Assembly: GCA_947589185.1 (NCBI GenBank)
Contig: CANQCK010000002.1
Location: forward strand, 124,925-172,604
Length of the DNA stretch: 47,680 bases
Origin: an uncultured Clostridia bacterium
GTDB taxonomy: Bacteria > Bacillota > Clostridia > Oscillospirales > Ruminococcaceae
Direction: 5' to 3'
The notes below the pieces were generated by a model. That model was not told the origin of the DNA. It searched no databases and saw only the letters and a list, made by a program, of their open reading frames with translations. Positions within the stretch are counted from its first letter, which is position 1. Every line of letters starts with the position of its first letter. A program made the translations under genes and the position numbers. Positions 36,447 through 39,953 of the stretch are shown here, piece after piece.

Positions 36447-36473
36447 GAAAAAATGAGAAGGGAGGCAATCGGT

Positions 36474-37322
36474 ATGGGTAAAATTGATCTGCATATTCAT
36501 ACCAGTGCATCGGATGGAACGTTCACTCCTCGTGAAACTGTAGAGCTTGCCGGGAAATTGGGTCTGTCAGCAATTGCTATTACTGACCATGATACAGTGG
36601 CAGGTGTGAAAGATGCACTTATCGCTGGGGAGGAATTGGGGGTAAAGGTCATTCCTGGTATCGAAATATCCGCAGGTTATGATGACGGTGTACATATACT
36701 GGGACTGTTTATTGACCCCAAATCTGTTGCGTTGCGTCCGGCACTGGACTGGGTTATAAGAGAGCGTGAGGCTCGCAATGAGAGAATTGTGAATGCAATG
36801 GTTTCAGACGGTATACCAATTTCTTTACAGGAACTTCAAACTGCTAATCCGAATGCAGTATTAGGTCGGCCTCATATTGCCCAGTGGCTGATGAATAACG
36901 GTTATGTATCCTCTATGGTCGAGGCCTTCGACCGCTATCTAGACAAGGGTCGGGTTTATTATCGCTCCAGACAGCGTATTCCATTGTCGGATGCTGTCAG
37001 TTGTATTCGCAATGCTGGGGGCGTGGCTGTTATTGCCCATCCATTGCAGTATGGTTACGAAGGGACGGAAATGGAGACTTTCATACGCACGTGTGTTGAT
37101 GAAGGTTGCCGGGCAATGGAGTGTATATACTCCGGCTACGGTAGAGAACAGCGGGAAATGCTTGTCTCGATGGCGGCTGAGTACGGTCTAGCAGTATCAG
37201 GCGGCAGTGATTTTCACGGTAAGCGTAAACCCCACATACAGATGGGTTGGGGTATTGACGGAGAGGTATCTGTGCCGGACTCTGTGTTAGAGGGGCTGCT
37301 GCAAATTGCAAAAAAATGCTAA
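36474..37322 (+). CDS. PHP-domain phosphoesterase (TrpH/YciV-like)
   Basis: Metal-dependent phosphoesterase. Relatives remove phosphate from 3',5'-nucleoside bisphosphates or degrade short RNA from the 5' end. From the ATG at 36474 it has 282 residues, chosen because GGGAGG lies eight bases upstream, giving MGKIDLHIHT; an in-frame ATG at 36453 lies before that site. Metal ligands: DLHIHTSASDG, ITDHDT, EISAG, AVIAHPL and the C-terminal SGGSDFHG. GC content, roughly 47-50 percent by eye, is clearly above all its neighbours, and codon choice is correspondingly different, a sign of acquisition from another genome. Confidence 0.92.
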   Translation: MGKIDLHIHTSASDGTFTPRETVELAGKLGLSAIAITDHDTVAGVKDALIAGEELGVKVIPGIEISAGYDDGVHILGLFIDPKSVALRPALDWVIREREARNERIVNAMVSDGIPISLQELQTANPNAVLGRPHIAQWLMNNGYVSSMVEAFDRYLDKGRVYYRSRQRIPLSDAVSCIRNAGGVAVIAHPLQYGYEGTEMETFIRTCVDEGCRAMECIYSGYGREQREMLVSMAAEYGLAVSGGSDFHGKRKPHIQMGWGIDGEVSVPDSVLEGLLQIAKKC

Positions 37323-37332
37323 AATATAAAAA

Positions 37333-37360
37333 TGAACCTTTTGATGTGATTTACTGTCTA
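37333..37360 (+). promoter_or_regulatory. ECF-sigma-type promoter before the sigma-fusion gene
   Basis: TGAACC (37333-37338) followed by TTTT, 16-base spacer, TGTCTA (37355-37360). This is close to classic ECF promoters (TGAAAC(C) ... CGTCTA) and unlike sigma-A hexamers. A perfect palindrome AAACCGGTTT (37369-37378) and a hairpin TTAGAT/ATCTAA (37378-37394) lie in the leader. It suggests autoregulation by the gene product. Confidence 0.6.
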
Positions 37361-37411
37361 TATAAGTGAAACCGGTTTTAGATAAGCAATCTAATCTAAA
37401 GAAGTGATATT

Positions 37412-38683
37412 ATGGATAGTTTTGAAGATTTGTTAGAAAAAAATAAAAGCTCTGTTGAACGTTTTGTGCGATTTCGCTTGTCTGAAAAGGCAGATACAGA
37501 CGATGTTTTACAAGAGGTTTATCTGACGGCGTATCAGAAGTTTGGGCAATTAAAGAATACGAATTCCTTTAAAGCTTGGATAATTAGTATTGCACGAAAT
37601 AAATGCAATGACTACTTTAGAGAAAAAGCTAGCCAGTTAGAAATTCCGATAGATGGAATAACAGAAAATGAATTATCTTACAGCAGGTACGGTGTTTCAG
37701 AAACAACTAATGTATCTGAGACTTTGAGTTTACTGGGAGATAAGGACAAACAAATTCTTTACTTGTACTTTTGGCGTGAATTGCCCCAGTCGGAAATTGC
37801 AAAGCTCTTAAATATTCCGCTGGGAACGGTAAAGAGCCGCCTTTATAATGCAAAAAAGAATTTCAAAAACAAATATCCGTATCGCTCTAACACATTGAAA
37901 GGAGTAATTGAAATGAAAAAGTTACCCGAATTTTTACCTGAATACAAAATTGAATTGAGCAGTAAAGAGCCATTCTCAGTTAAATGGGAGGAGCTGATGG
38001 GTTGGTTTCTTGTACCAAAGCTCGGCGAAAAGCTGACTTGGGGTATGTATGATATTCCGTCAAGAAAATGCGACCGTATTTATGATATGAAGGTTACCGG
38101 AAAAGCAATGGTTCACGGTATTGAGGGCGTTGAACTGACCGCAAGGGAAACTCCGTGCTCCAGCGAAGAAAAGGTAATCGACAGAACTTTTGTCGCTCAG
38201 CTAACAGATACTCATTGTCGTTATCTTGCAACTCTGAGAAATGACGGCGATGTAAAGAATTATATTACCTTTCTTGACGGCGATGCTTTTCTGCCCAACT
38301 GGGGATTCGGAGAGAATAACTGCGGAAATGAAACAAACCTTTCGCCAAAAGGTGAAATTAAGAGAAACGGAGATGTTATTACCAGTTTAGATAAGGATTT
38401 TTTGCTTGACATTGTCGGTCGTTATACGGTTATAATCAACGGCAAGAGCTTTGATACAGTTTGCGTTATGGATATAGAAACCTATAATGGAGGCGTTGTT
38501 TCAGAGCAGTTTCTTGATAAGAACGGAAAAACGATTCTTTGGCGAAGATTTAACCGCAATGATTGGGCAATTGACCGTTACAAAAAGAAATGGACTGAGC
38601 TGCTGCCTGAAAATGAGCGTTTAACGGTAAACGGCGAAACCTATGTACATTGGTATGATTGTATTACAGATTATATATTATGA
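37412..38683 (+). CDS. ECF sigma factor fused to an unrecognised C-terminal domain
   Basis: Residues 1-166 are a complete ECF sigma factor: region 2 with KADTDDVLQEVYLTAYQKF (promoter melting and core binding), linker, and region 4 helix-turn-helix WRELPQSEIAKLLNIPLGTV followed by KSRLYNAKK. Residues 168-423 are an additional 256-residue domain with no membrane segment, rich in beta-type strands, Trp and Cys (MGWFLVPKLGEKLTW, LDGDAFLPNWGFGENNCGN, DWAIDRYKKKW), which I do not recognise. The domain begins at an in-frame ATG with its own Shine-Dalgarno, so a separate short product is possible. No separate anti-sigma gene adjoins it. It is not the SnoaL-like extension of ECF41. Possible roles are a ligand sensor or built-in inhibitor, as inference. 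Confidence 0.88.
   Translation: MDSFEDLLEKNKSSVERFVRFRLSEKADTDDVLQEVYLTAYQKFGQLKNTNSFKAWIISIARNKCNDYFREKASQLEIPIDGITENELSYSRYGVSETTNVSETLSLLGDKDKQILYLYFWRELPQSEIAKLLNIPLGTVKSRLYNAKKNFKNKYPYRSNTLKGVIEMKKLPEFLPEYKIELSSKEPFSVKWEELMGWFLVPKLGEKLTWGMYDIPSRKCDRIYDMKVTGKAMVHGIEGVELTARETPCSSEEKVIDRTFVAQLTDTHCRYLATLRNDGDVKNYITFLDGDAFLPNWGFGENNCGNETNLSPKGEIKRNGDVITSLDKDFLLDIVGRYTVIINGKSFDTVCVMDIETYNGGVVSEQFLDKNGKTILWRRFNRNDWAIDRYKKKWTELLPENERLTVNGETYVHWYDCITDYIL
37898..37915 (+). promoter_or_regulatory. Internal ribosome-binding site and start in the sigma-fusion gene
   Basis: AAAGGAG (37898-37904), eight bases, ATG (37913-37915), in frame at codon 168, exactly at the border between sigma region 4 and the C-terminal domain. 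It is stronger than the site at the gene's own start (AAGAAGTGA). Confidence 0.65.
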
Positions 38684-38750: not shown

Positions 38751-38782
38751 AAAAAGACCGTCTCATAAGAAACGGTCTTTTT
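38751..38782. terminator. Bidirectional terminator between the sigma-fusion gene and fucO
   Basis: AAAAAGACCGT (38751-38761) and ACGGTCTTTTT (38772-38782) form a perfect stem with a ten-base loop and U tracts in both directions. Confidence 0.9.
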
Positions 38783-38801: not shown

Positions 38802-39953
38802 TTAAAATGCTGTTTTGTAAAGTTCAAGAATTGATTCAACTGTGCAAGGTCTTGGGTTGCCGCCTGTGCAAACATCTGCGAATGCAGATTCTGCAAGTGC
38901 CTGCAAATCCTCTTCCTTAACGCCGATCTCGTGAAGTTTAGCAGGAATTCCAACGTCTTTTGAAAGCTGCTTAACTGCGTCAACTGCGGCCTTTCTGTAT
39001 TCCTCCTGAGACATCGACTCTGTTCCTTCAACACCCATTGCCTTTGCTATGTCTCTGAATTTCTCGCCTGTGTATTCAGCGTTGTATTCCATAACATATG
39101 GGAGAAGTACAGCGTTTGCTATACCGTGAGGTGTGTCGTAGAAAGCTCCCAGAGGGTGTGCCATTCCGTGAACTACGCCTAGTCCTACGTTTGAGAAGCC
39201 CATTCCTGCAATGTATTGACCAAGTGCCATATCCTCACGACCCTTTGAATCGTTGTCGCAAGCGGCTCTAAGTGAACGTGAAATAATCTCGATTGCTTTA
39301 AGATGCATCATATCGGTGAGCTCCCAAGCGGCAAGGGTTGTGTAGCCTTCTATTGCGTGGGTGAGAGCGTCCATACCTGTTGAAGCTGTCAAACCTTTCG
39401 GCATTGACGACATCATATCGCTATCAACTATCGCTACTACTGGAATGTCGTGCGGGTCAACACATACGAATTTTCTCTTTTTCTCGGTGTCTGTGATAAC
39501 GTAGTTTATCGTTACCTCTGCGGCTGTTCCCGCAGTTGTTGGAACTGCAATAATCGGTACGCATGGCTTTTTAGTTTCAGCAACGCCCTCAAGAGAAACA
39601 ACGTCGGAAAACTCAGGATTGTTGATGATAATTCCTATGCCCTTTGCTGTGTCAATAGGCGAGCCTCCGCCGATTGCAATCAAATAATCAGCACCTGCTT
39701 TTTTGAAAGTGTCAACTCCGCTTTTTACAATGTCTACCGTTGGGTTTGCTTTAACCTCGTCAAAGATTTCATAAGCAAGTGACGCCTTATCCAGTAAATC
39801 TGTCACTTTCTTTACAACATTGAACTTTACTAGGTCCTTGTCTGTTACGATAAGTGCCTTTTTAAAGCCCCTTGCTGTTGCCTCGGTAACTATTTCCGAA
39901 ATAGCTCCTGCTCCAAAATATGAGGTCTCGTTTAAAATCATTCTGTTTGCCAT
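38802..39953 (-). CDS. fucO: Lactaldehyde reductase (1,2-propanediol oxidoreductase)
   Basis: Iron-dependent group III alcohol dehydrogenase that reduces L-lactaldehyde to 1,2-propanediol at the end of fucose and rhamnose fermentation. The 383 residues are very close to E. coli FucO from the first residues (MANRMILNET) through AIGGGSP, PTTAGTAAEVTINYVIT and RKFVCVDPHDIP to VCTGGNPR. Iron ligands by alignment are D195, H199, H262 and H276. AAAGGAG precedes the ATG. It stands alone, without other fucose or rhamnose genes, between its promoter and a shared terminator. Confidence 0.95.
   Translation of the reverse strand: MANRMILNETSYFGAGAISEIVTEATARGFKKALIVTDKDLVKFNVVKKVTDLLDKASLAYEIFDEVKANPTVDIVKSGVDTFKKAGADYLIAIGGGSPIDTAKGIGIIINNPEFSDVVSLEGVAETKKPCVPIIAVPTTAGTAAEVTINYVITDTEKKRKFVCVDPHDIPVVAIVDSDMMSSMPKGLTASTGMDALTHAIEGYTTLAAWELTDMMHLKAIEIISRSLRAACDNDSKGREDMALGQYIAGMGFSNVGLGVVHGMAHPLGAFYDTPHGIANAVLLPYVMEYNAEYTGEKFRDIAKAMGVEGTESMSQEEYRKAAVDAVKQLSKDVGIPAKLHEIGVKEEDLQALAESAFADVCTGGNPRPCTVESILELYKTAF

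Follow-up and report, generated by a model that had tools for sequence, protein, structure and literature searches.

Can one gene supply both a sigma factor and the protein that restrains it? The question is raised by an open reading frame in a stretch of 47,680 nucleotides from an uncultured Clostridia bacterium, here called the window, in which an ECF sigma factor is followed by a long C-terminal extension. The extension is apparently also encoded as a separate protein by the same message, and if two products are indeed made, a single gene would deliver a regulator together with its partner at a fixed ratio.

Organization of the fused gene

The fused gene (37412–38683, plus strand, as are all of its features given below) is a single open frame of 423 amino acids with no internal stop, coding for an ECF sigma factor and a C-terminal domain of 256 residues. 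The identity of the N-terminal part is clear. Sigma-70 region 2 spans residues 7–73 (37430–37630; PF04542, E 2.5e-12) and region 4 residues 101–149 (37712–37858; PF08281, E 2.1e-10), and the NCBIfam model TIGR02937 (sigma70-ECF) covers residues 3–154 with an E-value of 6.4e-25 and a score of 87.7 bits versus 42.9. PF04542, PF04545 and PF08281 all lie above the Pfam cut-off, and no sigma region 3 family is present among the Pfam matches of the fused protein. These matches confirm the complete N-terminal ECF sigma factor that an earlier sequence-only reading of this DNA (the original prediction) had placed in the frame. The two parts are joined by a linker (37871–37912), of which residues 154–164 are modelled at pLDDT below 50, and which varies among family members in both length and sequence, the Shine-Dalgarno codons excepted.

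The gene stands alone. The upstream frame (36453–37322) ends 89 bases short of it and the downstream frame (38802–39953) is convergent to it; a hairpin followed by a T-run at 38751–38782, as read from the sequence, is a probable terminator in front of the convergent frame. Across 71 loci, the most frequent neighbour cluster, ABC-transporter-like, is found in 14, on either side and on either strand, and the next, HTH-bearing, in 7; both were taken as background. No recurrent neighbour is a candidate for a separate anti-sigma gene beside the fused gene, which is consistent with the earlier claim that none is adjacent.

A conserved putative start site at the domain border

At the border between the two domains, the Shine-Dalgarno sequence AAAGGAG (37898–37904) is located eight bases before an in-frame ATG (37913–37915), exactly as the original prediction had described. 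The conservation of this arrangement was followed in 120 members with a near-complete C-terminal domain, reduced to 92 at below 90% identity with the window copy included; the reduced set also contains a relative with split genes (L019), a CD3324 fusion (L141) and two members in which the sigma part is broken or cut (L118 and L117). Among these 92 non-redundant members the border codon is ATG in 89, GTG in two and TTG in one. AAAGGAG precedes it in 70 of the 92 and another Shine-Dalgarno core in 19, and the three members without a listed core are L088, with AAAGGGG, L120, with AAAGGT, and L092, which was scored at a later ATG. The gap to the start is eight bases in 70 of 89, and the start codon is kept 5–12 nt behind the Shine-Dalgarno sequence. 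In L092, an insertion directly follows the internal ATG, and the Shine-Dalgarno sequence and start codon are kept. The median anti-Shine-Dalgarno pairing energy is −8.0 kcal/mol at the internal start versus −3.0 kcal/mol at 570 other in-frame ATGs.

The site also persists over considerable divergence. Members at 46–52% C-domain identity keep AAAGGAG or a near form together with the ATG, both elements are retained in L143, a sigma fusion with a C-domain only 28% identical to that of the window, and a weaker form of the Shine-Dalgarno sequence is retained in L194 and L195. The survey of homologues that had been proposed to check the original prediction thus found the site present in relatives, not absent from them. 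The Shine-Dalgarno sequence stays even where the surrounding residues differ (Asn-Gly-Gly, Lys-Glu-Glu, Gly-Met-Glu and others), and several members keep it in a different frame or at a different distance.

Comparisons at the level of codons separate the ribosome site from the encoded peptide to varying degrees. AAAGGAG-N8-ATG is observed twice against an expectation of 0.24 per shuffled window, a count that is weak when taken alone, and a chance origin is excluded by the conservation in relatives. When the codons of each ORF were redrawn from its own usage without altering the peptide, the real site scored better than 95% of the resamples in only 3 of 92 sequences (3.3%) and fell in the better half for 91% of the 92, a weak outcome because a fair site already follows from the Lys-Gly-Glu peptide by itself. 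It indicates that part of the constraint is carried by this peptide, which may itself matter besides the Shine-Dalgarno function. The resampling was supplemented by column-wise comparisons inside the same ORFs, in which the controls share, and do not remove, the descent by which the member sequences are related. First, 99% of 83 sequences use GGA for the linker Gly, and at 19 other conserved Gly columns the share of GGA is 13–49%. Second, the internal Met is found in 87 of 90 sequences of the codon alignment with GTG or TTG in the remaining three, and the Met of four other conserved columns is replaced by many codons, non-start ones included. Finally, in a scan for synonymous constraint over 296 conserved columns the linker Gly ranks first (z 6.8) and the Lys preceding it sixth. 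Strong synonymous constraint is also seen at residues F4 and S142 of the window copy (z 4.4 and 5.3).

The conservation pattern at 37898–37915 very probably reflects selection for internal initiation, and suggests that the free C-terminal domain is made in this way. The claim that one gene gives two products is hence strongly supported at the nucleotide level. The original prediction had furthermore held the internal ribosome site to be better than the gene's own, which is true of the window copy, with duplex energies of −7.5 and −3.5 kcal/mol, respectively, but not of the family: the internal site is the stronger one in 4 of 82 members, with medians of −8.0 for the internal and −14.5 for the own site, the latter being taken as the best-scoring candidate start, which favours it. 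Of the 82 members, 32 have GTG or TTG as their own start codon.

The C-terminal domain

The C-terminal domain (37913–38683, residues 168–423), which translation from 37913 would yield as the free product, is predicted to be beta-rich by AlphaFold2. The original prediction had recognised no domain in these 256 residues and had suggested an HMM search, in which no plain known-domain match appeared: Pfam gave no family at E up to 10, PHROG and PADLOC gave none at E up to 1, and the three NCBIfam matches are non-significant (E 0.11–0.22). Against PDB sequences, a single-sequence search returned three matches at E 0.91 or worse and a profile search none, and no enzyme family or ligand-site signature was found in Pfam, NCBIfam or the PDB sequences. 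Weak matches to MG3 (PF17791) in 17 of 63 members, with a best E-value of 0.014, were set aside. SnoaL matches are absent both from the window protein and, at E up to 1, from 63 aligned C-domains, in agreement with the earlier statement that the domain is not the SnoaL-like extension of ECF41; membership in ECF41 was rejected for lack of such a domain.

The AlphaFold2 model of the C-terminal domain has a pLDDT of 84.6 and a pTM of 0.83. Its structural matches are RseB/LolA-like and only middling, and families missing from the structure lists were not counted as evidence for a new fold. The full-length model, with a pTM of 0.59, gives no confident contact between the domains and does not place them relative to each other. 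The C-terminal domain is the better conserved part of the protein, with a mean identity to the window copy of 72% versus 63% for the sigma part and a higher value in 81 of 87 members, and it contains many invariant residues.

Other architectures

The original prediction had anticipated species in which the two parts are separate genes, and one such distant relative was found. In G167 (L019/L148), 56 bases lie between the gene for a sigma factor of 188 amino acids and that for a C-domain of 254 amino acids. The C-domain gene has its own AAAGGAG and ATG, and its product is 35% identical to the C-domain of the window. The same kind of promoter lies upstream of this split locus.

In two further loci, the C-domain is fused to a CD3324-family module, which is weakly Mor-like in Pfam (L141:4226–5248, minus strand, E 8.3e-25; L142:4049–5071, plus strand, E 1.9e-25). 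These C-domains are 28–30% identical to that of the window and again have AAGGAG and ATG at the border. Both are second copies, as the genomes that hold them (G431 and G394, respectively) also contain the sigma fusion. The presence of the C-domain on such a module is as expected for a portable regulatory domain. In two members, L045 and L118, the C-domain and its internal site are intact behind a broken sigma frame. Assembly errors may account for this; if they do not, it would suit a role for the C-domain apart from the sigma factor. Additional copies or fragments of the gene or of the C-domain occur in L133, L134, L136, L139 and L047, several of them with stops or frame breaks, and suggest gain and loss.

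The promoter and the adjoining palindrome

The layout of ECF-type promoters features GAAC at −35 and CGTC at −10. A putative auto-regulated promoter of this kind precedes the fused gene, with a −35 element TGAACC (37333–37338; extended, TGAACCTTTT) and a −10 element TGTCT (37355–37359), which in the family is mostly CGTCT or CGACT. The promoter is stereotyped and found upstream of 87 of the 92 non-redundant members; of the other five, four lack the pattern and one is too short to tell. The −35 element is TGAACC in 82 of the 87, CGAACC in three and TGAACT in two, the −10 element is CGTCT in 70, CGACT in 13, TGTCT in three, the window included, and CGTTT in one, and the spacer between them is 16 bases, with 17 in a single member. 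Given this layout, the sigma part most likely transcribes its own gene from the promoter at 37333–37359. A possible correlation of the −10 variants (GTC or GAC) with sigma-factor residues was dropped as confounded by descent.

Just 3′ of the −10 element, at about +1, lies a palindrome (TGAAACCGGTTTTA, 37367–37380) that resembles the cre-type operators of the LacI-family regulator CcpA. The form GAAA-NCGN-TTTC is found just behind the −10 element in most promoter-bearing members. The arms pair at 6/6 positions in 32 of the 87 and at 5/6 in 41, and the centre is self-complementary in 75 (CCGG in 58, TCGA in 12, ACGT in four and GCGC in one) with another centre in 12, so that the symmetry is mostly, though not always, preserved when the centre changes. 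The published CcpA cre consensus is TGWAANCGNTNWCA (PMC5263246), with which the window palindrome agrees by eye at 13 of 14 positions. The pattern TGAAANCGNTTTNA occurs at 10 places in the window's genome, 37367–37380 included, and its reversed control at none. Only one of these places precedes a recognised sugar gene (L205), presumably phosphofructokinase-like. The genes beside the ten places do not clearly point to sugar control, so the owner of the operator is a guess, and the cre identity of the palindrome is no more than a resemblance of motifs. The palindrome, GAAANCGNTTTC at 37367–37380 and at the matching places in relatives, is suspected to be a LacI/CcpA-type operator.

Promoter sites elsewhere in the genomes

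In the window's genome, a 24-base motif composed of the −10 element and the palindrome occurs once at up to three mismatches, and TGAACC-N15-17-GTCTA occurs twice, the second time without the T-run. The strict pattern TGAACCT-N15-CGWCT has 40 sites in 28 of the 33 gene-bearing genomes, of which 28 precede the fused gene, one is a further promoter copy and 11 lie elsewhere. Those 11 are all inside open frames of at least 129 codons, and the reversed-pattern control gives 10. The strict pattern is absent from five of the 33 genomes, among them the window's own, where it misses the fused gene because the −10 element there is TGTCT. Judged by these counts, strict promoter sites appear to rise above background only at the gene itself in the 33 genomes, and weaker sites are possible.

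A wider regulon was sought with TGAACCTTT-N14-GTCTA at up to two mismatches and rejected, the 33 genomes giving 442 matches versus 728 for the reversed control; taken singly, eight of them (G217, G288, G326, G402, G500, G575, G629 and G771) exceed their own control. At the end of contig 42 of G402 (L165/L251), a second promoter with a palindrome is present whose gene presumably lies beyond the contig end, and this genome may carry two copies of the fused gene. A separate class of sites, GGAACTTTT-N13-CGTCT, numbers 8 and 8 in G575 and G629 (L237 and L238), a clear excess over the 1 and 4 of the controls, is slightly enriched in G407 (3 versus 0) and has no site in the window's genome; it was assigned to some other sigma factor, perhaps another ECF regulon.

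A proposed model for two probable products

The best explanation for these features, which we give about an even chance of being correct, is a self-activated gene that yields two proteins and in which the C-terminal domain restrains the sigma factor. One message would give the full-length fusion and, from 37913, the free C-domain, and the sigma part would transcribe its own gene in a self-amplifying loop. The C-domain would sense a cytoplasmic ligand or state and restrain the sigma part in cis, and the free C-domain would act in trans as an extra inhibitor or as a hetero-dimer partner, setting the threshold and ending the loop. A LacI-family repressor such as CcpA, acting on the palindrome, could keep the loop off under rich sugar. 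A role of the C-domain as sensor or inhibitor of the sigma part, which the original prediction had suggested, is plausible, and the inhibitory extension of ECF41 and the inhibitory free product of Rpn, both described below, are published parallels. Several points weigh against this explanation, namely the outcome of the codon resampling, the greater conservation of the C-domain relative to the sigma part, which is unusual for a sensor, the intact C-domains of L045 and L118 if these are not assembly errors, and a full-length model without a confident domain contact.

The main alternative, a real though lesser possibility, is that the C-domain is the output of the system: the sigma factor would only switch its own gene in an all-or-none manner, and the internal start would raise a free effector, an enzyme or a binding protein, above the level of the sigma factor. 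Such an effector role is also compatible with the lack of further strict promoter sites and with the higher conservation of the C-domain. The location of 28 of the 40 strict sites before the fused gene, with the 11 elsewhere close to the control count of 10, agrees with it, although ECF regulons often use weaker sites that a strict pattern misses, and this one misses even the gene of the window and finds nothing in five of the 33 genomes. Likewise, the many invariant residues and the intact C-domains behind frameshifted sigma parts (L045 and L118) would suit an effector, but no signature of an enzyme family or a ligand site was found, and attachment to DNA-binding modules of two kinds would be more usual for a sensor. 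Restraint of the sigma factor by the free C-domain is preferred over this reading. A tentative and somewhat doubtful variant is a sigma factor with itself as its regulon, a private switch for its own C-domain, which the internal start would free, the same layout being re-used behind an unrelated DNA-binding module.

Explanations that deny a present start at 37913 fare far worse. It is very improbable that the internal AAAGGAG serves as a translational pause site to aid folding, as its position between the domains, in a linker predicted to be disordered, might suggest: pause sites need no start codon, whereas here one is kept 5–12 nt behind, a lost Met is replaced by GTG or TTG only, and in the split relative G167 the same arrangement begins a genuine gene. 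Just as improbable is a relic of the fusion of two operon genes with no present use, for which the split form of G167 and its similar promoter could be cited, since a relic would lose its synonymous positions first and the Gly codon is instead the most constrained of the 296 columns, and since AAAGGAG and ATG are still found in L143 and in the 46–52% members while the linker around them varies.

Relation to known systems

Judged by the host, the fused sigma factor may have its home in group ECF262, which we take to be a possible assignment. ECF262, with the representative SFB89493.1 from Ruminococcus albus, is given under 'Others' in the table of PMC8999054 and is presumed to comprise sigma factors with an extension. 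In the ECFs with extensions described there, as in the fused protein, a C-terminal domain behind sigma regions 2 and 4 takes the place of a separate anti-sigma factor; one of them, ECF41, has a C-terminal extension that inhibits its sigma factor (PMC8999054). Unlike these, the C-domain here has no SnoaL, TPR or other family match, the gene has a conserved internal ribosome site and start, and its strict promoter sites appear above background only at itself.

The two-product layout, as judged from the sequences, is of the gene-within-a-gene kind, in which an in-frame internal Shine-Dalgarno sequence and start codon are conserved, as they are here. As described for Rpn, Cas10d/Cas11d and other genes-within-genes, a full-length protein and a C-terminal product would arise via an internal start, and in Rpn the free C-terminal product RpnS blocks the full-length RpnL (PMC10327210). 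In contrast to these nucleases and CRISPR subunits, the N-terminal part here is a sigma factor. The Clostridium phage endolysin CTP1L is described as a full-length protein complexed with its own N-terminally truncated C-terminal product, but is a lysis enzyme and not a regulator. With RseB/MucB/LolA-fold proteins there is at most a possible likeness of the predicted C-domain, the structural matches being middling. No report of a sigma factor with an internal start was present among the literature matches listed, whose coverage leaves out most subscription journals. Beyond the original prediction, the analysis adds the stereotyped ECF promoter, the LacI/cre-like palindrome behind it in most members, and the near confinement of strict promoter sites to the gene itself.

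Distribution

Among 297 genomes of the family to which the window belongs, 19 have the C-domain, counting the window's own genome; the draw also contained four other genomes of the window's genus, none of which has it. The C-domain occurs in 36 of 245 genomes of the order, or 49 of 394 with a broader profile, and in 14 of 391 of the class, counts that for order and class include some fragments and stop-containing copies; at the level of the phylum it is found in 1 of 299, the window's own. There was no match in phages or plasmids and no confirmed relative in viral contigs, and carriage by mobile elements was rejected on this basis. Across 84,980 species genomes, 335 matching stretches were detected. 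Among the best 80 of the 335, which were kept, identity is often about 80% to relatives recorded under other families, and presence is patchy. The family, with its sharply defined promoter and start site, is thus widespread in Clostridia, and one of its members is found in Acetatifactor muris DSM 23669 (L059).
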